The translations under genes and the position numbers were made by a program. Below the pieces are notes generated by a model. The model was given only the letters and a program-made list of their open reading frames with translations. It was not told the origin of the DNA and searched no databases. Shown here piece by piece: positions 1 through 33,498 of a DNA stretch of 33,498 nucleotides. Within the stretch, counting starts at the first letter, position 1, and each line of letters begins with the position of its first letter. Origin of the DNA: an uncultured Alphaproteobacteria bacterium (GTDB lineage Bacteria; Pseudomonadota; Alphaproteobacteria; RF32; CAG-239); assembly GCA_944391435.1 (NCBI GenBank), contig CALXTP010000073.1, positions 1 to 33,498 of the forward strand, given 5' to 3'.

Positions 1-91
1 CGCAGGCAATATACTCCGCCCCCGGAAAAAGCTCTTTGCAGGCTATATGCGAATACGCGCCCATCGCTCCCTGAAACGTAATTTTCTGCAT
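1..91 (-). CDS. pheA: Prephenate dehydratase, N-terminal 30 codons only
   Basis: Read leftward from an ATG at 91, the 30 visible codons include FQGAMGAYSHIAC followed by KELFPGAE. This is the characteristic amino-terminal substrate-binding segment of prephenate dehydratase (FQGxxGAYSH). The enzyme converts prephenate to phenylpyruvate in phenylalanine synthesis. The reading frame leaves the window at position 1, so neither the catalytic TRF motif nor the ACT domain can be seen, and a fusion to chorismate mutase cannot be excluded, although the protein starts directly with the dehydratase fold. A GAGGA Shine-Dalgarno sequence lies about 8 nt before the ATG and a good promoter lies at 136-163. 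The identification rests on a short but very typical stretch. Confidence 0.85.
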   Translation of the reverse strand, partial: MQKITFQGAMGAYSHIACKELFPGAEYIAC

Positions 92-135
92 CGTCGTATC
101 CTCTTTACTTCATTTTTATTAAAACACAGCCTAAA

Positions 136-163
136 ATCATAACCTAAAAAGCCAAACTGTCAA
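136..163 (-). promoter_or_regulatory. Sigma-70-type promoter of pheA
   Basis: On the minus strand TTGACA (158-163) is followed after 16 nt by TATGAT (136-141). This matches the housekeeping consensus closely. Predicted transcription starts near 129, giving a leader of about 38 nt before the pheA ATG at 91. It is divergent from the promoter at 223-251. Confidence 0.7.
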
Positions 164-222
164 GCCAGATATGCGGCTCGCCTGCACTTCTCTCACTCTT
201 CAAAAAAAGCGGCAAAAGAAAC

Positions 223-251
223 TTGACAAAAATATGAATATTCAGTATAGT
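223..251 (+). promoter_or_regulatory. Near-consensus sigma-70 promoter of the secreted protein gene at 273
   Basis: TTGACA (223-228), a 17-nt spacer and TATAGT (246-251) form an almost perfect housekeeping promoter. The predicted start near 258 leaves a leader of only about 15 nt before the ATG at 273, or about 42 nt before the in-frame ATG at 300. Confidence 0.75.
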
Positions 252-272
252 ATTCTCTGAGAAGTTATCATT

Positions 273-890
273 ATGTCTAACCAAAAAAATTCTATTATCA
301 TGAAGAATTTTTTCGCAATTGCAGCCCTTGTTGCTGTAATGAGTGTATTAAGCGCATTTACCGCTAATGCGCAAGTGATTAACCCTCAGGCTCAGTCTGG
401 CGCTGAGATTCAAAACCCGAAATGGTTATGGGTCGGTGATACTTTCTTTGAATGGACCGATGAACTGCTCATTGTTACATCCATTCAGAGCAAAGATGCA
501 CCTATAAGGCTTTCTCAGCCCGTGCTGCAAAAAGACGGTTCTTTCACCGAGACTCCGCCGAGAAACATTTTCACCGACGTTTACAACCCAGTAACCGGAT
601 GGGAAAATGAAAGACCGATAGTTATCGGCGGCAGCGGAAGGCCTGAATCGTACATGGTGGCAGAAAAGACGTATACCGAATACGTTAATAACCTCATCAA
701 AACCGATTACTATGAGGTTCCCAACAAAAACGGCTTCATAGAAACGATCAGAGACCACCTGGTCTATGATGTAAAGGTCGAGAAGGGAAAGGTCTCGCTC
801 CGCATTCATTGCATCACTTACACTGATGGCGAAGAAACCGGAGACAAAACCTTGTTCGAGCATACCTATGTTCTCGAAACCAACCGTTGA
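273..890 (+). CDS. Secreted/periplasmic hypothetical protein, 205 aa
   Basis: Not recognised as a known family. The N-terminus is a clear signal peptide: a short polar lead, then KNFFAIAALVAVMSVLSAF, ending in TANA before QV, so cleavage is expected near residue 34. The mature part is rich in aromatic and charged residues, has a single Cys near its end, and shows no membrane segment or repeats. It looks like a small soluble beta-rich periplasmic protein. The start at 273 has a GAGAAG sequence 8 nt upstream; the in-frame ATG at 300 would also give an intact signal peptide but has no ribosome-binding site. A strong promoter at 223-251 drives it as a single-gene unit, and a hairpin terminator follows at 922-956. 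It is convergent with the cysteine-rich gene at 1018. Confidence 0.75.
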   Translation: MSNQKNSIIMKNFFAIAALVAVMSVLSAFTANAQVINPQAQSGAEIQNPKWLWVGDTFFEWTDELLIVTSIQSKDAPIRLSQPVLQKDGSFTETPPRNIFTDVYNPVTGWENERPIVIGGSGRPESYMVAEKTYTEYVNNLIKTDYYEVPNKNGFIETIRDHLVYDVKVEKGKVSLRIHCITYTDGEETGDKTLFEHTYVLETNR

Positions 891-921
891 AATCCGTCTT
901 GGAAATCAGCGGCTTAACCTC

Positions 922-956
922 AAAAAAAGTTCCCCCTGCAAAGGAGGAACTTTTTT
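922..956. terminator. Bidirectional rho-independent terminator between convergent genes
   Basis: AAGTTCC (927-933) pairs with GGAACTT (946-952), with an inner CCT/AGG pairing. The stem is flanked by an A7 run on the left and a T6 run on the right, so it can end transcripts from both the gene ending at 890 and the leftward gene ending at 1018. Confidence 0.8.
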
Positions 957-1017
957 CTTACCCGTTAAAAACCGCACGGCATACGGACGGCTAAACCGCC
1001 ATATCTCACATTGCCGT

Positions 1018-1731
1018 TTATTTTTTATCTCTCTTCAACACACACACGTCATTCCCTTCGCGTTCATCTGGGCAAAAACGTTCGCACAACCGTTCATTCC
1101 ATCTCAATCCGACGACAATAGGCGCATCGCACGCATAGCATATTCCCTCATCATCCATCAATGGCTTGTCCGGCGGACAATTCGGAACGCTCGGCACATT
1201 GCCGCCCACCCAATACAAAATGGTGCGGTTCGGACAAATATCTTCGCAATCTTTATCTATATTGCAATCCGACGGAATACGCACCGCCTTTTCTTCATCA
1301 CAGGCAAAGCAGGCACCGTCCCACCTTTGCAGCGGCTTATCCGGAGGGCAGATAATGTCCTCCTGTGAATTGTCCGATATTATATTGTCGTTATTGGTAT
1401 TTTCTTTCTTGGCAAACTCTTCGCCCGCTTCATAATCGGCAACCTCAGCCTCATGCGGGGTCGCAAAACAGCTGCCATACGGCGATTTGTAAGGAAATTC
1501 TTTCGGACATTCTTTAAGAGCACAGTTAATCCTGAGCACGCTGCTGCCGCTCCCCTCATAATTAGTTTCGCGGTTTGGGCACAAATAAGTGCACGCCTCG
1601 TCACTTCCCACTTCAAAAGCAAACCGGCTATCACACGATTCGCAACGGTTAAACTGGATAAAATCGCACTCCCCGGCATAAGCCGAAGAAACTGCCAACA
1701 TACCCGTCAACAACAATAAAAAAGTTCTCAT
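1018..1731 (-). CDS. Secreted cysteine-rich repeat protein, 237 aa
   Basis: A signal peptide is obvious: MRTFLLLLTGMLAVSSAYA followed by GE, with cleavage about residue 20. The mature protein has three related cysteine modules. Each has a C-x-x-C-D element (CESCD, CFACD, CYACD) followed by a C-x-x-x-C-P-[ND]-R element (CTYLCPNR, CEDICPNR, CERFCPDE). CPPDKPL occurs twice just before the CxACD elements. An acidic, Asn-rich linker sits between modules 1 and 2. The even, dense cysteines suggest a disulfide-stabilised periplasmic or surface protein, but no function can be assigned. The start is supported by a GGGAG sequence about 8 nt upstream. It lies 44 nt downstream of the deaminase gene and may be its operon tail. 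Its C-P...G-x-C-[FY]-x-C pattern resembles the giant protein beginning at 23300. Confidence 0.75.
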   Translation of the reverse strand: MRTFLLLLTGMLAVSSAYAGECDFIQFNRCESCDSRFAFEVGSDEACTYLCPNRETNYEGSGSSVLRINCALKECPKEFPYKSPYGSCFATPHEAEVADYEAGEEFAKKENTNNDNIISDNSQEDIICPPDKPLQRWDGACFACDEEKAVRIPSDCNIDKDCEDICPNRTILYWVGGNVPSVPNCPPDKPLMDDEGICYACDAPIVVGLRWNERLCERFCPDEREGNDVCVLKRDKK

Positions 1732-1775
1732 TTTCCACTCCCTTCATATAGGCAGCACACCGGCCGCGGTATTGG

Positions 1776-2303
1776 TTAATATTCCCCCGCCGCGGCAAAT
1801 TTGTCCTTCCAGGTTTTCATCACGGCAACCGCTTCCTCGCGGCATTCCGGCATCGCTATCCCGTAAACCCCGTCTTTAAGCATTTGGTAAAGCTCATCGT
1901 CCCTGAAGCCGATTGCTGCCGCATCTTCCCTGGTTGCCGCAAAATAAATTTTTTCAATATTCGCCCATTTCGCCGTCATCAGGCACATCGGGCACGGCTC
2001 GCAGCTGGTATAAAGCACACAGCCAGACAAATCCCATGTCCCCAAAACCTTGCATGCCTCACGTATGGTATAGACTTCGCCGTGCGCCGACGGGTCATTT
2101 TCTGCCAGCACATGGTTGCACCCGCCGGCAACCTTTTTGCCGTCTTTATAGATAACCGCGCCGAACGGCCCACCGTATAATTTATCTTCCTGCACCGCTG
2201 CCGCCGATAAAGCAATCGCCTCTTTCATCGCCGCAACATCGGCCGCACCATACTTTTTGCCAATCGCATCTCCGGCCGTTGTCCTCGTCCGTACCTCTGT
2301 CAT
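1776..2303 (-). CDS. Nucleoside/guanine deaminase family protein, 175 aa
   Basis: This is a cytidine/deoxycytidylate-deaminase-fold enzyme, most like guanine deaminase (guanine to xanthine plus ammonia). The zinc motif is visible as HGEVYTIREACK (His74, catalytic Glu76) and CEPCPMC (zinc ligands Cys104 and Cys107). The usual second residue of HAE is Gly here, which is uncommon but does not remove a ligand. The tail WANIEKIYFAATREDAAAIGF fits the GuaD branch better than TadA. The length of 175 aa is slightly longer than the usual ~155, the excess being an N-terminal extension. The start has AAGGAG 5 nt upstream. It follows parC by only 20 nt on the same strand, so it is probably co-transcribed. 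Substrate is inferred, since tRNA adenosine or other nucleobase deamination cannot be excluded. Confidence 0.85.
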   Translation of the reverse strand: MTEVRTRTTAGDAIGKKYGAADVAAMKEAIALSAAAVQEDKLYGGPFGAVIYKDGKKVAGGCNHVLAENDPSAHGEVYTIREACKVLGTWDLSGCVLYTSCEPCPMCLMTAKWANIEKIYFAATREDAAAIGFRDDELYQMLKDGVYGIAMPECREEAVAVMKTWKDKFAAAGEY

Positions 2304-2322
2304 CTCTGCTCCTTACTCTTTT

Positions 2323-4557
2323 TTATTCTTTAAAAAACTTATTGCTTTTCGGAAATCCGAACGGCACCAGCCGTCCGACCTGAGCCCTGTGTCCAAGCCA
2401 GGTCAGCAACTCTTTTTCGTTTGCCACGCCGCCCGAACGGTTATAGCAAAAGCCGTCTTCTTCCTTAAATATCTGCATATCGCTCATTTTTCCGCCGGTC
2501 TGATATTTTTGCAAACCGACGCCACGCCCGCGCGCCATGGTCGGAATTTCCTCCAGTTTAAAAATAAGAAGCTTGCGGTTTTCGCCGACCACGGCCACCA
2601 TATCGCCAGTAATCTTCTTGCAGAATGCCGCGTTTTCGCCATCCGCCAGATTCAATATCTTGCGCCCGTTGCGGGTTTGTGCCAGAATATGGCTTTCGTC
2701 AATCACAAATCCGTGCCCGCAATCGGAAGCAACCACATACTTGGTCCCCTTTTCAAACGCAAACATCGCACACACGTTGTCGTTGACACCCAAATCCGCC
2801 ATCAGCCGCACCGGCTGCCCGAACCCTCGCCCGGAAGGTATCTCGCTGGCATTGATATTAAAGAATTTGCCTGATGTATCAAACAGGATAATCTTATCCG
2901 TCGTATAGGCATGGATAGCCAGCTGCAGCGCATCATCTTCCTTAAACTTAAATTCATCGCCGAGCGGGACATAACCTTTCATGCTCCGTATCCAGCCTTT
3001 CTGCGACAAAATAACCGTAATCGGCTCTTTTTCAACCATAACTTCAATCGGCACGTCCACATCTTCCGGCATATCCGCAAACTGGCTGCGACGGCGCCCG
3101 AGCGGCGTCTTCTTGCCGAATTTTTCCTTCATGGCGTTGATTTCTTCCGCCAGTCGCGCAAACCGCATTTCTTCGCTGCCCAAAAGTGCCTCAAGCCCGT
3201 TTTTTTCCTCCGTAAGCTCATCAAACTCGCCGCGGATTTCTTCTTCTTCCAGCTTGCGCAAATTTCTGAGCTTCATATTGAGGATAGCCTCCGCCTGATT
3301 ATCGCTCAGCCCGAATTTCGCTATCAACGATGCCTTGGCATCGTCTTCCTCGCGGATAATGCGTATAACCTCATCCAGATTAAGGTACGCCACCAGATAG
3401 CCGGATAAAATCTCCAGCCTAGCCAAAATCTTGTCCAGCCGGTATTGCGACTTGCGGATAAGCACTTTGTGCCGATGGTTCAGATATTCTTTCAACACTT
3501 CTTTCAGGCTCATCACCCGCGGCACGCAATCCGATGACAACACATTCATGTTCATCGCAAAACGGATTTCCAGCTCCGTCTGCTTAAACAAATGCTCCAT
3601 CAAAAGGTTCGCATCCACCGAACGATTCTTCGGCTCCAGCACAATCCGCACATCATGTGCTGACTCATCGCGCACATCTGACAACAGCGGCAGCTTTTTA
3701 TCTTCCAATAGCTGGGCTATCTTTTCAATCAGTTTGGATTTAACCACCTGATACGGAATTTCCGTTACCACAATCTGATATTGCCCTTTGCCGAGGTCTT
3801 CTTTTTCCCATTTGGCACGAATGCGGAAATACCCCTTGCCGGTTTCATAGGCATTGACAATCGCTTTCTGGTCAGCAATAATCAGCCCGCCGGTCGGAAA
3901 ATCCGGCCCTTTGACAAATTTAACCAAATCAGCCGTTTCACATTCGGGATTTTTTATCAGATACAACAAAGCATCGGCCACTTCGCCGAGATTATGCGGC
4001 GGAATATTGGTCGCCATGCCCACGGCAATCCCCGAAGACCCGTTGCACAAAAGGTTCGGCACCGCTGCCGGCATAACCACCGGCTCCTGCTCCTCGCCGT
4101 CATATGTATCCATAAAATCAACGGCATTCTCGTTTAACCCCTCCATCAGCGCAATGGCAAACTCGGTCAGCCGGGCCTCTGTGTACCGCATTGCCGCCGC
4201 GCCGTCACCGTCAATATTGCCGAAATTGCCCTGCCCGTCCACCAGCGGATAGCGCACCGAAAAATCCTGCGCCAGGCGCACCATGGCGCCATAAACCGCA
4301 CTGTCGCCATGCGGATGGTATTTACCGATAACATCGCCGACCACGCGCGCACATTTTTTAAAGCCGGATTTCGGATCCAGCTTCAACTGCCGCATGGCAT
4401 ACAGCAAACGGCGGTGCACAGGCTTCAAACCGTCGCGCACATCAGGCAGCGACCGCGCCACGATTGTTGACATCGCATAAGAGAGATAGCGCTTGCTTAA
4501 TTCTTCTTTGAGTTTGACGTCATGAACTCTTTCATCAACAATTTCTTCTTCTTCCAT
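2323..4557 (-). CDS. parC: DNA topoisomerase IV subunit A (ParC), 744 aa
   Basis: ParC is the DNA-breaking subunit of topoisomerase IV, which with ParE decatenates daughter chromosomes. The breakage-reunion domain begins with [28 protein letters not shown] and contains [15 protein letters not shown] and the catalytic [10 protein letters not shown] (Tyr125). The long coiled-coil region and a shortened six-blade C-terminal domain with [11 protein letters not shown] follow. The total length is that of ParC, not of the roughly 870-residue GyrA. The start at 4557 is chosen because GAGGTAAAA lies directly before it; a further in-frame ATG at 4662 would add 35 residues without homology. Ser86 matches E. 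coli Ser80 in the quinolone pocket, but Gly90 stands where E. coli has Glu84. The gene follows recO by 77 nt, the common alphaproteobacterial order. Confidence 0.96.
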
Positions 4558-16147: not shown

Positions 16148-16200
16148 CATACTAATATACGCAGCAAAAAGCAACTCAAATGGGGAGGGAGGCATCGGCC

Positions 16201-16806
16201 ATGCGTGGCAAAAATAACGAAACCGGTTACACCATGATAGAAACCATCATGTACATCAGCATATTGGGAGTCTTAGGCGTCGTTCTGGCTTCTTATGCCA
16301 ATGCCGTATTCACCCGATACAAAACCGGACGGATAGCCCAGCAGATTCTTGATTTGAAAAAAGCCATCCTGTCCTATACGGCTGCCGAGGAAGACTATTC
16401 CACTCTTGATAAAACCAAAATGCAGGAAGACAAAGCCATTCCTCTGGATATGCGCGACCTGCACCACGCCTTGGGCGGCAGCATAGAGCTGGGGCCAGTC
16501 GGCAACAGCACCACCAGCAAATACCTCTATTACATAACATTCAGCGGCATTTATCAAAAAGGTTGCATTGAATTATTATCGCAAGGGCAGTTTTACGGCG
16601 ACGGCTCAGAAATGGATACTTTGATTGTCAATGACCGTACGGCCTGGTATTATGACGGGTCTTTTTACGATTCCAGCGATATCCCCACCCGCCACCGGAT
16701 GCAGTCTGCCTCCAATCCGGCTATATCCGTCCGCCCGACGATGGAACAGATTACCAATGCCTGCAACCGCAAAGACGACAACAGCATTACCTGGATATTC
16801 AGCTGA
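16201..16806 (+). CDS. Type IV pilin-like protein (prepilin signal, PilS-like), 201 aa
   Basis: The N-terminus is a short prepilin leader ending in Gly9, followed by the methylated-Tyr/Phe position and hydrophobic helix YTMIETIMYISILGVLGVVLA, with the Glu at position +5 that is needed for pilin assembly. A prepilin peptidase should cut after Gly9, outside the membrane helix. The globular part (about residues 40-201) has two cysteines (KGCIEL and TNACNRK) that could close the typical pilin D-loop. The start at 16201 is chosen over the ATG at 16180 because GGGAGGGAGG lies between the two, 8 nt before 16201. No assembly ATPase, platform or peptidase gene is in this window, so the protein may be used by a machine encoded elsewhere. 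Confidence 0.8.
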   Translation: MRGKNNETGYTMIETIMYISILGVLGVVLASYANAVFTRYKTGRIAQQILDLKKAILSYTAAEEDYSTLDKTKMQEDKAIPLDMRDLHHALGGSIELGPVGNSTTSKYLYYITFSGIYQKGCIELLSQGQFYGDGSEMDTLIVNDRTAWYYDGSFYDSSDIPTRHRMQSASNPAISVRPTMEQITNACNRKDDNSITWIFS

Positions 16807-21224: not shown

Positions 21225-21866
21225 TCAATAGGAATCAAGCACTTTAATCCCCAGCAGGCGCACCAGTCCGCCAGCCTGCCGTGCCGTAATCACCGCTCCG
21301 CGCAATTCGGAAAAATCGCTGGAGAGTGTCACGCCGCCGATTTCCGTATCAGTCAAATCAACCCCGGAAAAATAAGTCTTAAAACAATTTGTCCCGGAAA
21401 AATCCGCCTCCACCGGCTGCAAGTTTTGCAATCTGCATTCGGAAAACTCAGAATCAACAAGCCGCGTTTTTTCCAAAAGCACCGACCTTAGCAATCCTCC
21501 GTTCAGATTAACATATTGCAGCAAACTGTTTATAAACGCCGTATCCTTCAAAACCGCACCGGTCAGTGTACACCCGACAAATTTGCAGTCTTTGGCATAA
21601 ATGCCTTGCCAATAGCAGCCCTCAAAATTACAATTTACAAAAGAACATTGCTCAATCAAAGCCTTATTCCACGACGTTTTATAAAAGCTGCAATTTTTGA
21701 ATTTACACCCTGACAGGTGCACCGTATCAAAATCCGTCCGGTCAAAAGTTCCGCCGTCAAAAACAAGCCCCTGTCCTGAAGCATTGGCAATTTCCCCTTC
21801 TTCAACAGCCTCTGTCGCCATCGGTTGCAAAAGCGGAAAAACCGGCTTTTGCCATAATTTAGGCAT
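21225..21866 (-). CDS. Pentapeptide-repeat protein, 213 aa
   Basis: From about residue 33 to 185 every fifth residue is Phe/Leu/Val preceded by a small residue, as in LSGCKFKNCSFYKTSW, QCSFVNCNFEGCYWQG and VDLTDTEIGGVTL. This is the right-handed quadrilateral beta-helix of pentapeptide-repeat proteins. The end, LRGAVITARQAGGLVRLLGIKVLD, is a frequent C-terminal cap of such proteins and is also seen in the Qnr gyrase-protecting group, whose length (about 218 aa) is similar. That alone does not show a gyrase role. Eight cysteines line the helix. The ATG overlaps the stop codon of the M20 peptidase by 8 nt, so translation is coupled to it. Confidence 0.88.
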   Translation of the reverse strand: MPKLWQKPVFPLLQPMATEAVEEGEIANASGQGLVFDGGTFDRTDFDTVHLSGCKFKNCSFYKTSWNKALIEQCSFVNCNFEGCYWQGIYAKDCKFVGCTLTGAVLKDTAFINSLLQYVNLNGGLLRSVLLEKTRLVDSEFSECRLQNLQPVEADFSGTNCFKTYFSGVDLTDTEIGGVTLSSDFSELRGAVITARQAGGLVRLLGIKVLDSY

Positions 21867-22965
21867 CTGCCAGGCTCCTCAGGTATTCAATCTGGATTTG
21901 CGCCAGCTCTTCAACCGATTGTAAAACCACATATTCGCCGTCGCCATGCATTCCTTCGCCGGAACCCGAGTGCATAATCACGGTTGCCCCTTTTTCGGCA
22001 AACAGCCGCGCGTCGGTCGCCCCACCGATTTGCTGAAACTCTATCGGACGCCGCATAATCTTTTCCGCCTGCTTTTTATAGTTTAAAATCTGCGGATTTT
22101 TTTCGCTCATCACCACCGGGGTTGAAGAAGAAACGACCTTATAGCTGACACCTTCGGCGCAGGCCTCCTGGATATTCATCTCCAGCTCTTCAAGCATAGA
22201 CGTCTCCGTCAGCCGGATGTCAAGCAATGCTTCGGCATGCCCTGCAATAATGTTTGAAACTTCGCCGCCGTTTATCAGGGCAACATGCATCGTATCAACC
22301 CATGTATCTTCCGGCGCGCCGCTGTTCATGTCAAAATAGGGATACTTTTCTCTGAGGTTGGCAATCGTCCGCATCAGCATTTCATTGGCATCAAGCCCTT
22401 CCCAGGGTGTAGAGCCGTGCGCTTGTCTGCCTTCGGCTATCAATTTGACAAACACCGGATTTTTGCATTTATTGATAATTTTGGCAATATCGCCGCCGAC
22501 ATCATTATCCAACACGACATTTGCCGTCAAATCCGGATATTTTTTCAAAAAGGCATGCGTGCTTTTGCTGCCTTTTTCTTCATCGGTAGATAAAATAATC
22601 CCGAATTTGACCGGCAATTTGTGTTCCAAGACATAATGCATGGAATTCATTGCCACCGCAGCAAAAGATTTCATATCAAGCGTCCCCCGCCCGTACATTT
22701 TGCCCTCGGCAACACGCGGTTCAAACATATCATCGGCAGCCTTGACCACATCAATATGCCCCAAAACCAGGGCATCTTGCTTCATCTCGGAATTATTGCT
22801 GATATAAATAACCGGGCTCGCATCGTCAAACCGTTCAATCCGCACGCACGCCGCCGTTCCCGCAAAACTGTCGGCAATATAGGCCAGACATTTGTCAATT
22901 TCAATATTATTGCCCGTTTCGGTTCTGAAACGCACCAAATCTTCTATCGTTTTAATTAATTCCAT
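21859..22965 (-). CDS. M20-family metallopeptidase/amidohydrolase (ArgE/DapE-like), 368 aa
   Basis: This is a cytosolic di-zinc hydrolase of the M20 family, whose members remove acyl groups from amino acids (ArgE, DapE) or cleave small peptides. Ligands and catalytic residues are visible: GHIDVV (His70, Asp72), GRGTLDMK (Asp97), STDEEKGS (catalytic Glu129, ligand Glu130), VLDNDVGGD (Asp153/155) and HGDGEYV (His340). The dimerisation lid contains QAHGSTPWEGLDAN. The length is normal. Nothing in the context decides between acetylornithine deacetylase, succinyl-diaminopimelate desuccinylase or a peptidase. AGAGAGGA precedes the ATG. Its stop codon overlaps the pentapeptide-repeat gene, an unusual pairing. 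A hairpin at 22984-23008 sits in the leader. Confidence 0.9.
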   Translation of the reverse strand: MELIKTIEDLVRFRTETGNNIEIDKCLAYIADSFAGTAACVRIERFDDASPVIYISNNSEMKQDALVLGHIDVVKAADDMFEPRVAEGKMYGRGTLDMKSFAAVAMNSMHYVLEHKLPVKFGIILSTDEEKGSKSTHAFLKKYPDLTANVVLDNDVGGDIAKIINKCKNPVFVKLIAEGRQAHGSTPWEGLDANEMLMRTIANLREKYPYFDMNSGAPEDTWVDTMHVALINGGEVSNIIAGHAEALLDIRLTETSMLEELEMNIQEACAEGVSYKVVSSSTPVVMSEKNPQILNYKKQAEKIMRRPIEFQQIGGATDARLFAEKGATVIMHSGSGEGMHGDGEYVVLQSVEELAQIQIEYLRSLADA

Positions 22966-23299: not shown

Positions 23300-26200
23300 A
23301 TGCGGAGAACTTTTTTGAAAAAGCTGATAAAGCGCCTCGGAACGGTGTTAAGTACACTTTCCATGGTCATGATACTAAATATAAACTCTGCCGCGGCGGC
23401 AACCAGATTGACGCCGTATCACCTGTATTTATGGGCAAAAAACGCTAACGTCGCCCGCCTTGAAGAGTTCAAACGCTACATCAACATCCAAGATTACACC
23501 ACCAGAAACACCGCCATTTGCATCGCCCAACAGCACAAAGACTACGCCGCATATAAGCTTTTGCTACAATTTGGCGCCTCCGTCCGCGTCGCCTGCCATG
23601 ACAATACCGATTTGCAATGCCGCAAAATTATCACCGAAGTCGGCGGCATAGACACCGGCATCGTTTTGCTCGGTGCCGCCGCACTCGGGGCCGGAGCCAT
23701 AGCGCTGGCCGCCGGAGGCGGTGGTGGCGGAGGCGGCAGTGCCGGTCCCGTATGCGATGTCAGCCAATATCCGCTGGACTCCTGCCCCGAACATGGCGTC
23801 TGCTCAACTTGTGAAGAAAAATATAAGCTGGATTCCTGCGCCCAATTTTGGCAAATATCAGGCAATTCCTGCGTCCCGGCTGCCTGTCCGGCCGGCGAAT
23901 ACCTTAAAGGCGGCTGTCCCGCCGCTGCCGCCGGAACCGTTTTGGAAGAAGTGCCGAGCTCATCATTTTCCGGCAATGCGCAATGCTACCGTTGCAACTA
24001 CATCTGTCAGGAAAGTGCCGGTTTTTACCAAGACCGTGCCACCTGTCAAAACACTTTCCCCGGCTACGGCTGCGTCCTGCACGCCAACGGCTGCTTTATC
24101 CGCGGCGAAGCATTGGATTGCCCGCAAAATGAATCAACCGAATGCGAACCGGCCGAACCTGGCTTCACCCTGACCCAAACCGAAACCGGCAATCTTTCCG
24201 GCACACAAAAATGCTACCTCTGCACATACGCCCCCAAACCCTGCCCCGCCGACCAATACACAGAAGGCAACTGCCCGGCAGAGAGTTGGCAAAGCCCCGT
24301 TTACAACCCGACTGAAAATTTCTCCGGCAACAACCGCTGTTATACCTGTTCTTACAAATGCAACACGGCCGGCGGCTATTATGACAGCCGGGAAAGCTGT
24401 GAAAATGCCAACACAAACAAAAGCTGCGACTTAAAAGGGGGCACCGGCTGTTATGCCGTTACCGGCTGTAACAATGCCCAAGGCTACTACGGCACAGCCG
24501 ACGAAGTAACTGACCTTTATCCCGGTTATGATACAAAATATGAAAACGGCTGTTTTACCAGAGGCGACCCCAAAGACTGCCCGGATGGCACTGCCACTTA
24601 CGGCAACTGTCCAGGCATAACCGGTGGCGTAGCGCAATACACCAACTTGTCGGAAGGGAATTTTTCCGGCACCAGTCGCTGCTATAATTGCATATATATA
24701 TGTGATACCGGCAATCACTATTACGCCTCCGACAGCGCCTGCAAAGTTGCCAACCCCGGCCTTTCCTGCACACCTTACGAGATTCCGGGTCGTACCTGCT
24801 ACATTGCAGACACCTGTAATATTGCCGAAGGATATTATGAAAACGATACAGAGTGCAAAGCCGCCAATCCCGGCCACATTTGCCAGCCGGATGAAGACAG
24901 CGGCTGCTCCAAAGTCCAAGGCTGCGACAACGATAATGGCTATTATGACGACCCTTCCGAAATTTCCCCCGGCTATGAAACCATTCAGCAATATGGATGC
25001 TACAGGCAGGGCGAAGCCAAGGAATGTCCGAGCGGCGAAGAAGAACAGTGCTACACCAGCGACCCGTATAAAGAAGACATCTCCACCGAAACCGGAAACT
25101 TTTCCGGCGAAACGCCTTGCAAAATCTGCGCCTTTCAATGCCGTTCCCAGCTTGGCTACTACGATACGCGCCAAATCTGCCAGACCACCAACCAAGGCCA
25201 CACCTGTGATTATGCCTCCGGCTCCACCTGTTTCACGCCAACCGGCTGTAATAACGCCCTGAACTATTATAAACTTCCCTCCGAATGTGAAAGCGCCAAC
25301 CCCGGCTACAATTGTTATGCCACCCGCAGCCCTAACGGCGCCAATGTCTGCTATACCAAAAATAGCAGCGACATCAAAAAATGCCCGTCCGGCGAATATC
25401 TGATGGGCCAATGTCCCTCAAAAGACGGCACCACCCCGAATTACAACCCGACCGCCAACAAGCAGGGCGAAGAACAATGCTACACCTGCACCTACCAATG
25501 CAACGGCACCACCCACTTCACTGAACAGGAAACCTGTGAGGACGCCAACCCCGGTCATAGTTGTTCACAAGATGCAGATACCGGCTGTTTCATACGTGCC
25601 GGCTGCAACACAGCTGACGGCTATTATGAGAATGACGAAGACTGCCGAGCCCACAGCACCGGACACCTGTGCGAGCTGGAGCCCGACTCGCAATGCTATG
25701 TCCAGAGCGAAACCTGCGATGAACTAAACCAATATTACAACGACCAATCAGACTGCGAAAACAATTACATCGGCTACTCCTGCAGCATAGCTTACGGCTG
25801 CTATGTCAAAGGCGAAGCAAAACCATGCCCTGACGGTGAACATACCCAATGCGAAGAAAAGCCGGGAACCGATGTTGAAGCCACCGAAACCGACAACAAA
25901 TCCGGCGAAAACAAGTGTTACACCTGCACCTACACCTGCCTGGAGAGTGAGCAGCACTATGCCGACAAAGAACGCTGTGAAGAAGTCAACCCGCAAAAAT
26001 TCTGTGCCGAAGAAAGTGCCTCCGGCTGTTACATTCCGTCAGCCTGCAACACCGCCGCCGGCTATTATGAAGAAAAAGACGATTGCGAAGCTGCCGAAGA
26101 TAATAAAGGCTACTACTGCAAGTTGGTTGGCGAATGCTACCAACAAGGCGACCCGGCTCCCTGCCCCGGCGATGAAAGAACCGACGGCCAATGCGACCCG

Positions 26201-29200
26201 CGCGAATATAATGACCTGAGCTATGACCCGACCGATAATAAAAGCGGCGAAAATCAATGCTATAGATGCGTATATACATGTCAAACCGCAAATAACCGCT
26301 ACCCAAATGCCGAAAACTGTGAAGCCGCCAACACCGGACGCTCCTGCGTTTTAGAAAGCGCCTCGCAATGCTACATTGCCGGCAGCTGCAACACGGAGGC
26401 TGGCTATTATGAGGATAATGGCGCCTGCACCTCCGCCAATCCCGGACGCACTTGCGAACAAGACCCTGTTTCACAATGTTATATTAAAGGCAACTGCGAT
26501 ACGGCACAAAAACACTATGAAGACGAACGTACCTGCACCACGGCCAACCCCGGCATGAACTGCGCTCCGGAAGAAGAATCCGGCTGTTACATCCCATCTG
26601 CTTGCAACACTGCCGCCGGTTACTATGAAGAAAAAGGCGACTGCGAAGCGGCCGACAATAACAAGGGCTACGTCTGCGAACTGCAAAGCAACGGCTGCTA
26701 TTTTAATCAGGGTACGCCCGCCGATTGCCCGGAAAACGAATACACAACCTGTCCCGAGCATCCCGAACATAATGCGACACCCACGCCGACGGATAATTTT
26801 TCCGGCAAAAATCAATGCTATACCTGCGAATATACATGCAACACCGCAGAAAATTTTTATGACCGGCAGGATGACTGCGAAGCGGCCGCAGACAACCGCG
26901 GCTACACCTGCGCTCTGACCGAAAACAACTGTTACACCAAAGACGTTGCCAAAGAATGCCCGGAAAATTCATACACCGAATGTCCGCCCCGCGACGGCAA
27001 AATCCCCACGCCGATTCCGACAGACGACTATGCCGGCGAAAATCAATGCTTTACCTGCTCATACGGTTGCGATACATTAAATAATTACTATGACGACCAA
27101 TCTTCCTGCCTTCAGGTTCACCCGGGCAACACCTGCGATATCGACTCCACCGGCTGCCACGTTCCCGGCCCCTGCGACACTGAAGCCGGCTGGTATGAAT
27201 CCGAAAAGCTTTGCCAAGCCGCCTTCCCCGGCTGGACATGCCAGGAAAACGCCGGCTGTTACACCAGGCAAACCGCCCTTAAGTGTCCGGAAAACCAATA
27301 TACCGCCGGCAACTGCCCCCCAAAAACCGGCAATACTGCATCTTACATAGAAAGCGGTTCCTGGGCCGGCGACCAACAATGCTATACCTGCGAATACACC
27401 TGTGACACCGGAGAGGATTATTATACCACCGAAGAAGAATGTACCGGCGCCAACCCTTCAAAACTGTGCCCTTACGATGATGAATCCGGCTGCCACAAGC
27501 CTGGCCGCTGCAACACGGGCTTGGGAAAATACGACGAAGAAGGAGAGTGTGAAACAGCCAATGCCGGCTATTCCTGCATACCGGAAGGCGATTGCTATAT
27601 ACAGGGTGAAGCCGTTCCCTGCCCCGAAGGCGAATATTCAGAGAGTGAAGAATGTCCCGCCGCCGTAGAAGGGAAAACGCCGGTTAAGGTTCCGAGCGGC
27701 AGCATGAGCGGCGCCGAGAAATGTTACCGTTGCGAATACGAATGCGACGAAGAACGGGGTTTTTATTCTTCCACTGAGGCTTGCCGCCAAACCCACCCTG
27801 AATTGGCCTGCAATGTTTATGACAGCTACACCGGCTGTTATATGCCCGGAACCTGCAACACCGAAGACGGCTATTATGCTGACAACAGAGAATGCCTGGA
27901 CGACAACAAAGGCTATACCTGCGAACCTGTCGGCCAATGCTATCACCAGGGTGAAGCCACGCCCTGCCCCGAAGGCGAAGAACCGGCCTGCACGCCCAAA
28001 CCGGGCCACACCCACACCGAAGACCTCACCGACAACTATTATGGCGAACAGCAATGCCGTATTTGCACCTATGCCTGTGACACCGAAAACTATTATTACG
28101 AAGATGAAGAAGCCTGCCTTGCCGCCAACAGCGAATATACCTGCTTGCCTGATATTGAATCCGGCTGCGTCAAACGTGAATCCTGTGATACCGGCAAAGG
28201 ATTTTACGGCGATTCATCTTCATGCGAGGCCAATTTCCCCGGTTTTTATTGCAAACTGCAAAACGGCTGTTACACCAAAGATGAAAGCCTCGTAAAACAA
28301 TGTCCGGACAATGAATATGTAACCTGCCCGGAAATTGACGGCACCATCGTCACCCCCACGCCGACCGATAACATCTCCGGCGGACAGCCCTGCAATACTT
28401 GCGCCTACACCTGTAATGAAACAACGCATTACCAGCTGGAAACAACCTGCCAGGTCAACCATCCGGCCAGTATTTGCTCTCCGGTGGAAGACTCCGGCTG
28501 CTATACAGCTCTCCGTTGCGACACCGGCCGTGGCTACTATGACGGCCTCAGTGCCTGCCAGCAGGCTTTCCCCGGCTATGAATGTGTGGAAGAAAGTGGC
28601 TGTATGACCAAAGGCGCCGTCAAACAATGCCCGACTGATCAAGTAACCGACGGCAAATGCCAACCCCGCGTCGGAAACGACGTTAAACAAGTAGAAAGCG
28701 GTTCTTTCACCGGCGACGAGCCATGTTACAACTGTGTCTACACCTGCCTTTCCGATGACGGTTATTACCAGGATACCGACAGCTGCGAAGAGGCCAATAT
28801 CGGACGCTCCTGCGCAATAAACAACGAATCGCAATGTTACATGGTATCCGGCTGCCGCACGGACATGGGATTATACGCAGATGAAAACCGCTGTCTTGAA
28901 GCTTTCCCCGGCTACACCTGCATTGAGGCACCCGACACGCTGGGATGTTATGAACAAGGCCCGGCGGCAGACTGTCCGCAGGGGCAATTCCTGGAAAACG
29001 AGGAATGTCCCACAAGGCCGCACACAACCTCTGAAAAAGACGAAAGCGGCTCTTTCAGCGGCGAAAATAAATGTTACAACTGTATATACACCTGCCTGAC
29101 CTCTGAAGGCTATTACCAAACCTCCGGCGAGTGCACCGCGGCCAACCCCGGCAAAAGCTGCTACCAAGAGGAAACATCAGGCTGTTACACAGATTCCGGC

Positions 29201-32200
29201 TGCGACACGGATAACGGCTATTATGATACAAAAGAACTCTGCGAAGCCGCCGATGGCAACAAAGGCTATTATTGCAAAAACGCCTCCGCCGGCACCTGCT
29301 GGATTAAAGATGAAGCCTCCCCGCGCACCTGCCCTTCCAACGAAGTCCTGAAAGACGGTTGCACCCCAAAAGAGGGTACCAGCTTAGATGAAGTCCCCAC
29401 CAACAATTATGCCGGCGAAAAACAATGCTACCGCTGTGTCTACACCTGCCTTGAGGATGAAGGCTACTACACCGAACAAACAACCTGCGAAACAAACAAT
29501 CCGAATTTTATCTGTGAAAGGGACAACAATTCCGGCTGTTATCAGGCAACGGAAGGAGTCCCCTGCCCTGAAGACGAATATTTGCATAACGAATGCCCTC
29601 CCCAAACCGGCAAAACCCCGATAGAAACGGAAACCGGCAACATGTCCGGCTCTCAAAAATGCTACACTTGTTCTTACAAATGCAACACGGCAAGCCAATA
29701 CTATGACACCGAGGAAGAATGTAAGAGTGTCAATATAGGCCGCACCTGCCCCAAAGACAATGAGTCGTCCTGTTACCGGCCGACCGGCTGTGATGAAGCT
29801 CAGGACTATTATGAAGATATTGAAAAATGCGAACAGGAAACCGGCTACGAATGTGGTGAAAAGAACAGCTGCTACGTTGCAGATACAACACCTTTGCCCT
29901 GCCCTGACGGTGAAACCACCCAGTGCCTTGAAATTCCGGGCACGATTCTGGAAGCGACGGAAACCGGCAACAAATCCGGCGAAAACAAGTGTTACACCTG
30001 CACCTACACCTGCAATACGGAAGAAAGTTACTATGAAAGCGATGACTTATGCACCGCTGCCTTCCCCGACCATAAATGCGATTTGGATCCGGCGTCCCAA
30101 TGTTATCACCCTGGCACTTGTTTGGAAGAAGAATTTTATTATAACAATCAGCAAACTTGTGAAAACAATTATCCGGGCTACAACTGCGAGCTCAATGCCA
30201 CCGGCTGCTATATCCTGAACCCGGACAGCATCAAGCCTTGCCCCGGCGATGAACAAACCTCCTGTGAAGAACGTACCGGCATGAACCTGACGGGCCAGAC
30301 GGAAACGGGCAATGTTTCCGGCACCGAAAAATGCTACCAATGCACCTACGAATGTAACAACACCACGCATTACACGGAAATCGGCCAATGCCAGGCCGAA
30401 CACCCGAACAAATTGTGTGAACCGGATCCGGCGACCGGCTGTTACACCGACCGTGCCTGCGATACCGGCAATGGGTTTTACGACAGCCAGGAAAAATGCC
30501 AGGAAGCATTAAAAGGATACAGCTGCAAATCCGACAGCGATGGCTGCTGGATAGAAAATGAAGTTCTGCCCTGTCCCGATAATGAAACCACTCAATGCGA
30601 AGAAAAAGAAGGAAATACGCTGCGATCCATCCCGACCGAAAATTTCTCCGGCGGCATGCAATGCTACACCTGTGAATACACTTGCGATACCAGCGAGGGC
30701 TATTATCAGGATAACGATAGCTGTACCGATGCCAATGAGGAATATTTATGCGATTACAACAATGCTTCCGGTTGTTTCAAAATCGGCAAATGCAACACTG
30801 CCAACAACTTTTATGACGATATAATGTCATGCACAAGCAGTAATCCGGGCTACAACTGCGACGAACAGCAAAAAACCTGCGTCACGCCGGGAACACCGAA
30901 AGAATGTCCCGCAGACGAATATGTTACCTGTCCGGATAAGCCGGGAAAGCTGGTCACCAAGTCTACTCCGACGGCCAATTATGCCGGTAGCGAACGTTGC
31001 AATATTTGCTACTACAACTGCAACGAGGATTTAGGATACTATGACGGACCAATTGATTGCCCCTTTATAAACGAATGTCATGAAACTCCGGATCCGGAAA
31101 CAGATTGCTACATCGTCGCCGGATGCACCGCCGAAGGGCAATATGCCACAATGTCGGCCTGCGAAGAAGCAAATCCCGGCTATACCTGCCAAAAAGAATA
31201 TTCAGCCTGCTTTGTCAAAACCGATACGGCAAAAGATTGCCCTGAAGGCGAGTATGTTACTTGTCCGGAAATTACCGGCACAATCCCCACCGCAACTCCG
31301 ACAGCCAACAAATCCGGCGAAAACACATGCAACACCTGTGAATATAAATGCGATTCGGCACAAGGATACTACACAACTCCCGATGAATGTCCTGAAGAAA
31401 ACATTTGCACGCCTGATGAAGCTTCCGGCTGCTACAAAATCAACGGCACCGCCATTACCAATCAGCAAACCACGCCGTTATCAATCAAGAACACGCGTGC
31501 GATAGAGATAGAGAGCAGCGGCAGCGAAGACATATACGGCTTAAAGAGCAGCGCCGATATAACCAACGCGGTAGATGAAACAACCGGTTCGGCAGGCTCT
31601 GTCAACATTGAGCACAAAGGCACCGGCGCCGCCTACGGCATTTACGCCGCCGTGCCTGAAACATCAGACACCACGGGCGAAACCACAGATAACGCCGGGC
31701 TTTCCGGCAAGTTGGATATATCTTCCGGCGCCATCGGCTCGCTCACGCCCGACACGCCCCCGACGGCCGGAACCGTTATCAATGAAGCCGGAGCTTCCGT
31801 CAACATCCACAGCCACAATGGCGGAGACGCCTACGGCATTTATGCCGGAACCGGCGGCACCGTCATTAACAGCGGCTCCGTCAACATTACCGGCAATGCC
31901 GAAAACGCTTACGGCATCTACGGCGAAGGCCAAAACACCATCACCAACGCCGGCGACATTTATGTTGAAGGCAAAAACGCCTACGGCATCTATGTCAAAG
32001 ACGGCTCCGGAACTTCCGTCACCAACGAACAAGGCGCAACCATCACCGTCAACACCCTTGACGGCCAGGGCAACGCCCACGGCATTTACATAGCCGAAAA
32101 CAATGAAGACGCCGTCGTTGCCAACCACGGCATCATCAAAGTCAACGGCACCGTGGTTGACGGAAATGCGGGCATTGCCCTCAATGGCGCCAGACTGAGC

Positions 32201-33498
32201 AATTACAGCCTCATGACGTTCAGCGGCGATGCCGATTTAGACGCCCTCGGCGGCAAAATCTATCTTGAAGATGGCGGCGTTTACGAAGCTCAGAGCCTTA
32301 AAGGCGATTTAGATGTCGGCACTTCTGCCGTCACCGGTAGCAATCAAGACACCTACGTCCAGGAAAACAGCCTCAAGACCGAAGACATCAGCGACCTGAA
32401 CCTAGGTTCGGAATCGGCACTCTTCAACGCCGCGGCACAAAAGAACAACAACGGCAGTTACGATGTCGTCCTCAACCGCCGTAGCTTCAACGAATTCACC
32501 GATAATGCCTCGCTGTCCGGCTATCTGGAGCAAAACTACAAAGAAGGGAAACTGACCGGCCTCTACGATGACATCAAATCCGAAAGCACGGACTTTGGCA
32601 CCCGCCAAAACATCGCCGGACAAACAGGCTTTGACACCTTGTTGAACTTCGCCGACGAGAACTTCCAAGTTCTCCGTAGCCTCAACCGCAGCATGGCCGA
32701 TACCATCTTAAAGCCTTCCGACGAGCCTTACCGCGTCTTGGCCGGCTACGACAACTTCAATCTTGAAACCGATACCAAAGGCATCTTGTCCGGTTACGAG
32801 TTGTCCTCCAACTCTATGTACACCTTCGGCGATAAGCGCCTGGACAACAAAAACCGCCTCGGCCTCGGCCTGAGCTACACCAAGCTGTCCTCCAGCTATG
32901 ATGTGGGCGGCGACCGCGACTTGAACATCTTCACCGTCTTTATGCCCTATTTGCATAAATTCAGTGACAACCTCCGCCTCGCTTCCGTCTTAAGCTTTGG
33001 TTACGGTTACGGTGACTACGACCGCGGCTCGGATCGCGAATCTGACATTACCGACTACTTCTACGGCCTGACCAACGAACTCCGTTATACCATTGACCTC
33101 AACGGCTTTGCCGAACTTGAGCCCGCCCTCATGCTCAATGCCCTGGGCTACTCCGAAGACGGCTTTGACGAAGGTTCCGGCGAAAACGCCCTTGTCACCA
33201 AACGCACCAACAACCTCTCCGTTGAAGGCGGCATCGGCCTCTTCCTCAAAAAAGACGTCAAAATGGAAAAATACGGCAAAATCGGCTTCAAAATCGGCGG
33301 TATTTATTACCACGAGTTCGCCTCCCCTTACGACGACATACGAGCTCAGCACCGCGGCGCCTCCGGCTGGTACACGATTAACGACTACGCCAACCTTTAC
33401 CAGCGCGACCGCGCCGTCCTTGAAGCCGCTATTGACTACGAATACAAAGACATCGCTCTTTATGCCAAGTATAATAGGCTAATACAAAAGAACGACCC
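23300..33498 (+). CDS. Giant cysteine-rich autotransporter (type V secreted), at least 3399 aa, 3' end outside window
   Basis: One open frame without a stop runs from ATG 23300 (AAAGG 5 nt upstream) to the window end. Domains in order:
- basic signal peptide, residues 1-34 (ends NINSAAAA);
- an ankyrin-like helix pair, about 40-105 (NTAICIAQQHKDYAAYKLLL, then FGASV);
- a hydrophobic segment 120-138 followed by eight Gly;
- cysteine-rich tandem modules, 152-2711;
- a beta-helix-like stem with five AYGIY/AHGIY copies, about 2778-2930;
- a linker, then an autotransporter beta-barrel from about 3146 (YRVLAGYDNF, RLGLGLSYTKLSSSYDVGG, FGYGYGDYDRG) with alternating aromatic strands; only the last strand or so is missing.
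The barrel should place the passenger on the cell surface. No peptidase, lectin or enzyme motif was recognised. A role in adhesion or surface coating is only inferred. It is divergent from the M20 gene, with a GANTC cluster upstream. Confidence 0.88.
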   Translation, partial: MRRTFLKKLIKRLGTVLSTLSMVMILNINSAAAATRLTPYHLYLWAKNANVARLEEFKRYINIQDYTTRNTAICIAQQHKDYAAYKLLLQFGASVRVACHDNTDLQCRKIITEVGGIDTGIVLLGAAALGAGAIALAAGGGGGGGGSAGPVCDVSQYPLDSCPEHGVCSTCEEKYKLDSCAQFWQISGNSCVPAACPAGEYLKGGCPAAAAGTVLEEVPSSSFSGNAQCYRCNYICQESAGFYQDRATCQNTFPGYGCVLHANGCFIRGEALDCPQNESTECEPAEPGFTLTQTETGNLSGTQKCYLCTYAPKPCPADQYTEGNCPAESWQSPVYNPTENFSGNNRCYTCSYKCNTAGGYYDSRESCENANTNKSCDLKGGTGCYAVTGCNNAQGYYGTADEVTDLYPGYDTKYENGCFTRGDPKDCPDGTATYGNCPGITGGVAQYTNLSEGNFSGTSRCYNCIYICDTGNHYYASDSACKVANPGLSCTPYEIPGRTCYIADTCNIAEGYYENDTECKAANPGHICQPDEDSGCSKVQGCDNDNGYYDDPSEISPGYETIQQYGCYRQGEAKECPSGEEEQCYTSDPYKEDISTETGNFSGETPCKICAFQCRSQLGYYDTRQICQTTNQGHTCDYASGSTCFTPTGCNNALNYYKLPSECESANPGYNCYATRSPNGANVCYTKNSSDIKKCPSGEYLMGQCPSKDGTTPNYNPTANKQGEEQCYTCTYQCNGTTHFTEQETCEDANPGHSCSQDADTGCFIRAGCNTADGYYENDEDCRAHSTGHLCELEPDSQCYVQSETCDELNQYYNDQSDCENNYIGYSCSIAYGCYVKGEAKPCPDGEHTQCEEKPGTDVEATETDNKSGENKCYTCTYTCLESEQHYADKERCEEVNPQKFCAEESASGCYIPSACNTAAGYYEEKDDCEAAEDNKGYYCKLVGECYQQGDPAPCPGDERTDGQCDPREYNDLSYDPTDNKSGENQCYRCVYTCQTANNRYPNAENCEAANTGRSCVLESASQCYIAGSCNTEAGYYEDNGACTSANPGRTCEQDPVSQCYIKGNCDTAQKHYEDERTCTTANPGMNCAPEEESGCYIPSACNTAAGYYEEKGDCEAADNNKGYVCELQSNGCYFNQGTPADCPENEYTTCPEHPEHNATPTPTDNFSGKNQCYTCEYTCNTAENFYDRQDDCEAAADNRGYTCALTENNCYTKDVAKECPENSYTECPPRDGKIPTPIPTDDYAGENQCFTCSYGCDTLNNYYDDQSSCLQVHPGNTCDIDSTGCHVPGPCDTEAGWYESEKLCQAAFPGWTCQENAGCYTRQTALKCPENQYTAGNCPPKTGNTASYIESGSWAGDQQCYTCEYTCDTGEDYYTTEEECTGANPSKLCPYDDESGCHKPGRCNTGLGKYDEEGECETANAGYSCIPEGDCYIQGEAVPCPEGEYSESEECPAAVEGKTPVKVPSGSMSGAEKCYRCEYECDEERGFYSSTEACRQTHPELACNVYDSYTGCYMPGTCNTEDGYYADNRECLDDNKGYTCEPVGQCYHQGEATPCPEGEEPACTPKPGHTHTEDLTDNYYGEQQCRICTYACDTENYYYEDEEACLAANSEYTCLPDIESGCVKRESCDTGKGFYGDSSSCEANFPGFYCKLQNGCYTKDESLVKQCPDNEYVTCPEIDGTIVTPTPTDNISGGQPCNTCAYTCNETTHYQLETTCQVNHPASICSPVEDSGCYTALRCDTGRGYYDGLSACQQAFPGYECVEESGCMTKGAVKQCPTDQVTDGKCQPRVGNDVKQVESGSFTGDEPCYNCVYTCLSDDGYYQDTDSCEEANIGRSCAINNESQCYMVSGCRTDMGLYADENRCLEAFPGYTCIEAPDTLGCYEQGPAADCPQGQFLENEECPTRPHTTSEKDESGSFSGENKCYNCIYTCLTSEGYYQTSGECTAANPGKSCYQEETSGCYTDSGCDTDNGYYDTKELCEAADGNKGYYCKNASAGTCWIKDEASPRTCPSNEVLKDGCTPKEGTSLDEVPTNNYAGEKQCYRCVYTCLEDEGYYTEQTTCETNNPNFICERDNNSGCYQATEGVPCPEDEYLHNECPPQTGKTPIETETGNMSGSQKCYTCSYKCNTASQYYDTEEECKSVNIGRTCPKDNESSCYRPTGCDEAQDYYEDIEKCEQETGYECGEKNSCYVADTTPLPCPDGETTQCLEIPGTILEATETGNKSGENKCYTCTYTCNTEESYYESDDLCTAAFPDHKCDLDPASQCYHPGTCLEEEFYYNNQQTCENNYPGYNCELNATGCYILNPDSIKPCPGDEQTSCEERTGMNLTGQTETGNVSGTEKCYQCTYECNNTTHYTEIGQCQAEHPNKLCEPDPATGCYTDRACDTGNGFYDSQEKCQEALKGYSCKSDSDGCWIENEVLPCPDNETTQCEEKEGNTLRSIPTENFSGGMQCYTCEYTCDTSEGYYQDNDSCTDANEEYLCDYNNASGCFKIGKCNTANNFYDDIMSCTSSNPGYNCDEQQKTCVTPGTPKECPADEYVTCPDKPGKLVTKSTPTANYAGSERCNICYYNCNEDLGYYDGPIDCPFINECHETPDPETDCYIVAGCTAEGQYATMSACEEANPGYTCQKEYSACFVKTDTAKDCPEGEYVTCPEITGTIPTATPTANKSGENTCNTCEYKCDSAQGYYTTPDECPEENICTPDEASGCYKINGTAITNQQTTPLSIKNTRAIEIESSGSEDIYGLKSSADITNAVDETTGSAGSVNIEHKGTGAAYGIYAAVPETSDTTGETTDNAGLSGKLDISSGAIGSLTPDTPPTAGTVINEAGASVNIHSHNGGDAYGIYAGTGGTVINSGSVNITGNAENAYGIYGEGQNTITNAGDIYVEGKNAYGIYVKDGSGTSVTNEQGATITVNTLDGQGNAHGIYIAENNEDAVVANHGIIKVNGTVVDGNAGIALNGARLSNYSLMTFSGDADLDALGGKIYLEDGGVYEAQSLKGDLDVGTSAVTGSNQDTYVQENSLKTEDISDLNLGSESALFNAAAQKNNNGSYDVVLNRRSFNEFTDNASLSGYLEQNYKEGKLTGLYDDIKSESTDFGTRQNIAGQTGFDTLLNFADENFQVLRSLNRSMADTILKPSDEPYRVLAGYDNFNLETDTKGILSGYELSSNSMYTFGDKRLDNKNRLGLGLSYTKLSSSYDVGGDRDLNIFTVFMPYLHKFSDNLRLASVLSFGYGYGDYDRGSDRESDITDYFYGLTNELRYTIDLNGFAELEPALMLNALGYSEDGFDEGSGENALVTKRTNNLSVEGGIGLFLKKDVKMEKYGKIGFKIGGIYYHEFASPYDDIRAQHRGASGWYTINDYANLYQRDRAVLEAAIDYEYKDIALYAKYNRLIQKND
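23753..31432 (+). repeat. About 23 tandem cysteine-rich modules of roughly 110 residues (in-frame coding repeat)
   Basis: Each module contains [NS]-[FKYM]-[SA]-G-E-x-x-C-Y-x-C-x-Y-x-C, then one or more C-[ND]-T-x-x-G-Y-Y-x(5)-C-x-x-A-N-P-G-x-x-C sub-units with S-G-C-Y. It closes with C-P-x-x-E-[YF]-x-x-C-P and a Pro/Thr linker. I counted 23 copies of the G-x(3)-C-Y-x-C box, beginning near 23950 and ending near 31330. Modules differ in how many GYY sub-units they hold. Cysteine spacing and GYY/ANPG are kept while other residues and codons vary, so selection acts on the protein. A 46-nt stretch is identical at 25894-25939 and 29968-30013, in the same frame. Confidence 0.85.
31631..32089 (+). 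repeat. AYGIY repeats in the autotransporter stem
   Basis: Five AYGIY/AHGIY copies start at 31631, 31829, 31907, 31979 and 32075 (66, 26, 24 and 32 residues apart), separated by short Gly/Asn/Thr-rich strands such as VNIHSHNGGD and ITNAGDIYVEG. The pattern fits rungs of a beta-helix next to the barrel and contains no cysteine, in contrast to the region before it. Confidence 0.75.

Follow-up and report, generated by a model that had tools for sequence, protein, structure and literature searches.

A giant autotransporter-like protein with a cysteine-dense repeat passenger in an uncultured alphaproteobacterium of the order RF32

Organization of the giant gene and its surroundings

The window analyzed in the current study is a complete contig (C73; 33,498 bases) from the 1.5 Mb, 92% complete genome of an uncultured alphaproteobacterium. 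On its forward strand we detected a giant frame of 3399 aa that opens with a methionine codon at 23300, stays uninterrupted up to the last base of the contig (33498), and encodes, in this order, a signal peptide, an ankyrin-like head, a hydrophobic helix with poly-glycine, a cysteine-rich part, a cysteine-free segment, and a PF03797 barrel. The signal peptide (aa 1-33, 33 residues; 23300-23398) was read by eye and from the ortholog alignment, based on its basic start, hydrophobic stretch, and Ala-rich cleavage site between SAAA and ATRL. The putative head (aa 34-115; 23399-23644), which contains three cysteines, is followed by a Gly/Ala-rich hydrophobic helix, GIVLLGAAALGAGAIALAA (23657-23713), conserved in position in relatives, and by a poly-Gly linker (23714-23737), the two together spanning aa 120-146. 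The cysteine-rich passenger (aa 152-2711; 23753-31432) holds 270 cysteines in 2560 residues (10.5%) and is composed of A-type units, 23 in number, and of B-type units placed between them, the order being mostly A-B-B. The 688 residues C-terminal of it contain no cysteine, the cysteines thus being fully segregated from the barrel-proximal region.

The cysteine-free segment with YGIY repeats (31445-32539) is matched by the Pfam family BigA_beta at 32291-32482 (25.3 bits, the cut-off being 24.3) and is probably beta-solenoid or autochaperone-like in fold and role. A solenoid-like appearance is confined to this barrel-proximal part of the passenger, and the beta-helix that is typical of, but not obligatory for, such passengers was not found in the cysteine modules, which AlphaFold2 predicts to be short helices and hairpins. 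The Pfam autotransporter barrel (PF03797; 32765-33475; E 2.5e-19, 70.5 bits vs. a Pfam cut-off of 26) aligns to positions 1-319 of the 331 of a profile made from complete relatives, and the contig edge therefore cuts off about 12 residues of the C-terminus. The aromatic C-terminal residue of the barrel would lie beyond the contig end, complete orthologs ending in YKF or FNF. Combining a signal peptide with a PF03797 barrel at its C-terminus in one polypeptide, the predicted protein has the layout of a type Va autotransporter. The frame, the 270 cysteines, and the barrel confirm the proposal of a first-pass annotation that the locus encodes a giant protein of autotransporter architecture with a cysteine-packed passenger. 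Its outline of signal peptide, cysteine part of about 2560 residues, and barrel also holds, although it had missed the ankyrin-like head and hydrophobic helix, the two-type A-B-B repeat, the cysteine-free segment adjoining the barrel, and the sharing of the head across passengers.

Upstream, an M20 peptidase gene on the reverse strand (21859-22965; Pfam) serves as a synteny anchor: eight other assemblies (L061-L065, L067-L069) carry it in the corresponding position, just upstream of the giant gene, and most of them also have RNase E/G, Maf, and DksA genes there. The relatives that could be named are uncultured Alphaproteobacteria or Rhodospirillales, some of them from roe deer, water deer, or yak gut or rumen, and the genome presumably belongs to the gut lineage for which the name RF32 is in common use. 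Besides, the window contains a PilS-like (type IV pilin) gene at 16180-16806 that is kept at the matching place in relatives. Two further contigs of the same genome encode cysteine-rich proteins. Contig C67 (L050) carries at 1-3561 a second, paralogous cysteine-rich passenger with 111 cysteines, whose last 460 bases, at the contig end, match 31468-31937 of the window (forward strand) with 96% DNA identity, which suggests that the barrel end was duplicated or underwent gene conversion. Contig C53 (L051, reverse strand, frame of 1781 aa) encodes an apparently exported protein with 81 cysteines and GAYSS-PNTSFF-SGSTCYRG repeats, with no barrel-like C-terminus.

An ankyrin-like head shared by different passengers

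The head was modelled by AlphaFold2 with a pLDDT of about 84, and its top Foldseek matches were nearly all ankyrin repeats, these matches being weak (best E 0.28, prob 0.9). The paralog on contig C31 gave an Ank_4/Ank_2 match below the cut-off. A profile of the head (A2) matched 79 of 127 genomes of the order, a broader distribution than that of the cysteine modules, which were matched in 25 of 153 genomes of the order, mostly of the genus of the window. In a class-wide sample, the own genome was the sole match and no modules were detected in the 384 other genomes. Among the genomes searched, the modules were found only in the order of the window.

Within the same genome, the head is also present on the autotransporters of contigs C44 (a complete protein with 52 cysteines) and C31 (10 cysteines), and on a subtilase protein of contig C39. 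The latter (L102; 595-3660) has the ankyrin-like head fused to a subtilase (PF00082) domain, and no PF03797 match was found in it. The ankyrin-headed autotransporters of the order (C44, C31, L103-L111) share the signal peptide, head, hydrophobic helix, and C-terminal barrel with the giant protein, while their passengers range from 4-11 cysteines in 3000-4500 aa, as seen in other genera where the barrel is related, up to 52-157 cysteines. L111, from another genus (reverse strand, frame of 2848 aa), is ankyrin-headed and autotransporter-like, with a start rich in cysteines that looks EGF-like and 100 cysteines in total; its cysteine richness has perhaps a separate origin. Since the head with its hydrophobic helix occurs order-wide on autotransporters with very different passengers, the cysteine passenger is, as judged by these comparisons, one of the exchangeable passengers carried on a chassis of the lineage.

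That head and helix are conserved across unrelated passengers suggests that they serve secretion or anchoring and not the function of the passenger itself. It might also indicate that the head folds in the periplasm and stays there unexported with the helix, in which case both ends of the passenger would be held in place and it would form a loop or rod. Such a topology would be compatible with a disulfide-braced passenger, but we consider it unlikely, as the N-terminus in type Va secretion is normally the last part to leave and yet does exit, and as the segment is only marginally hydrophobic for membrane insertion (summed insertion scale of about 0.1). Moreover, if a cleaved signal peptide were followed by a real stop-transfer helix, the passenger would be stranded in the cytoplasm. 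In our preferred reading, the head would sit at or near the free end of the stalk formed by the passenger.

Cysteine modules, their conservation, and disulfides versus metal

The usual A-B-B repeat comprises about 112 residues and 12 cysteines, the A unit being typically C-x7-C-x21-C-x2-C and the B unit C-x12-C-x8-C-x(5-7)-C. The spacing C-x12-C-x8-C was observed 31 times vs. 0.33 expected (maximum of 3 in 1000 shuffles) and is the signature of the modules, while CxxC pairs, by which they had originally been described, occur at chance level (24 observed vs. 22.9 expected from composition). No DNA tandem repeats were found by TRF, indicating that the repeats are old. Recombinational shuffling of the modules was also considered and is disfavored, the repeat order and cysteine counts being nearly identical in all orthologs.

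Two adjacent tandem repeats (26957-27619, forward strand), which the first-pass annotation had suggested modelling, gave a confident AlphaFold2 prediction (mean pLDDT 95.7, pTM 0.66, 52 aligned rows), in which the second cysteine of the B unit (C2) lies in a helix and the third (C3) in the next strand. The modules had no family match in Pfam or NCBIfam, no sequence match in the PDB, and no fold match by Foldseek (PDB, viral) or VIA, in agreement with the initial impression that they belong to no known family. Aligners of the Foldseek and VIA type perform poorly on elongated repeats, and a new fold is therefore not proven by these searches.

Among six orthologs, 269 of the 270 cysteines are invariant vs. 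641 of 2238 other positions (29%), and all but one of 146 repeats (145) have an even number of cysteines. Thirteen full-length aligned B units lack C2 or C3, and 12 of them lack both; many or most of these units are at orthologous positions and hence represent few independent events. Pairwise dN/dS values of 0.03-0.2, obtained with dS near saturation, suggest that the giant gene is under purifying selection. The invariance of the cysteines, their even parity, and the paired loss of C2 and C3 favor, but do not prove, intramodular disulfides rather than metal sites, and the disulfides of the B unit may be nested (C1-C4 and C2-C3).

A metal-binding surface protein that keeps its modules reduced, with Zn, Cu, or Fe-S held by cysteine clusters, would agree with cysteine numbers in multiples of four (132 of 146 repeats). 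Thiols would also be favored by the habitat, the gut being largely anoxic, and by the redox machinery, as neither DsbB nor VKOR was found in any of the 127 genomes of the order searched. However, 13 repeats have 10 or 14 cysteines, arising via the paired loss of C2 and C3, and these counts, together with the chance level of CxxC pairs, argue against metal binding, including the earlier option of coordination through CxxC pairs, and render it improbable. The DsbA family was detected in all 127 genomes, the own copies having CGHC or CGYC motifs. DsbA matches seem more numerous in the genus of the window (mostly 3-5 vs. mostly 2), a difference that is confounded by split matches and shared ancestry, and a genome of this genus without modules (G016) also has four. 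The own DsbA-like genes (L078 and L079 loci) include a near-adjacent pair on contig C10.

Intramodular disulfides remain our preferred assignment, within a gene that is found complete elsewhere. In L068 (SUUK01000002.1; 3370 aa, 265 cysteines, ending FNF-stop) and L069 (JAGAZZ010000055.1; 3235 aa, 248 cysteines, ending YKF-stop), head, cysteine modules, and barrel lie within one unbroken frame, which supplies the complete C-terminus that was looked for and is absent from the window contig. That an assembly or frame artefact fused a cysteine-rich gene to a barrel gene, a frameshift or join about which the first-pass annotation had cautioned, could be suspected from the contig terminating inside the giant gene, from the near-identical paralog DNA of C67 just downstream of the cysteine part, and from several related contigs breaking at this same place, but is largely refuted and has hardly any probability left, since two other assemblies hold the gene complete in a single frame, and given the synteny of the locus and the purifying selection.

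Comparison with known surface proteins and proposed export

Passengers of type V systems have few cysteines, the chlamydial Pmps reaching up to 18 (PMC8151025), so that the 270 found here represent a roughly fifteen-fold higher number. In a PmpD passenger fragment, all 18 cysteines are reported to be disulfide-bonded (PMC6005502). Both are autotransporters with several passenger cysteines, but the giant protein has another repeat, no Pmp Pfam match, no GGA[ILV], and six FxxN motifs in 3399 aa, and is thus not assigned to the Pmps. Multi-disulfide fusions are reported to be largely incompatible with transport by Hbp (PMC3521207), and the conflict with published disulfide limits that had been pointed out from the sequence is indeed apparent from this literature (PMC8151025, PMC3521207). 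The giant protein resembles BigA-like type Va proteins in its PF03797 barrel, barrel-proximal BigA_beta match, and giant size (BigE has 10,429 aa; PMC3419190), but differs in that most of its passenger is predicted to consist of cysteine-rich mini-domains rather than a beta-solenoid. The cysteine-rich surface proteins of gut protists (Giardia VSP type) are similarly long, cysteine-dense, and of surface type, a likeness by analogy only, and differ from this putatively barrel-exported bacterial protein, in which CxxC is not enriched; no Pfam match to VSP-type families was detected in it at E<=1, and VSP-like membership was rejected.

Based on these results, we consider it fairly probable that the giant protein is a type Va-like autotransporter in which about 135 disulfides staple about 23 tandem mini-domain repeats into a surface stalk or adhesin that would be long and probably resistant to proteases, carrying the head at or near its free end. 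This explanation is supported by the single frame with a barrel, the two further complete genes, the invariance and even parity of the cysteines, the low dN/dS, the confident fold model, the paired C2/C3 loss, the cysteine-free 688 barrel-proximal residues, the ubiquity of DsbA, and the PmpD precedent. The missing DsbB and VKOR, the anoxic gut, and the poor export of multi-disulfide fusions by Hbp count against it. We hypothesize that the barrel inserts and that the adjoining cysteine-free segment is the first to emerge and fold, after which the cysteine modules may follow, either as reduced chains or as small knots formed beforehand, and become locked outside. Only tentatively, and at somewhat less than even confidence, do we propose that the barrel and BAM translocate a passenger with so many disulfides, whether as 270 thiols kept reduced until outside in a lineage with no recognizable DsbB or VKOR or as a chain of small pre-formed knots, and that A-B-B is a new small disulfide fold.

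The most likely role of the passenger would be that of a rod-like adhesin or coat. With about 270 fixed cysteines in a protein of autotransporter layout, the rule that many disulfides block export becomes directly testable, and these passengers offer a natural test of the capacity of the barrel/BAM pore and of the timing of disulfide formation. The modules could also serve as a compact, highly cross-linked building block.
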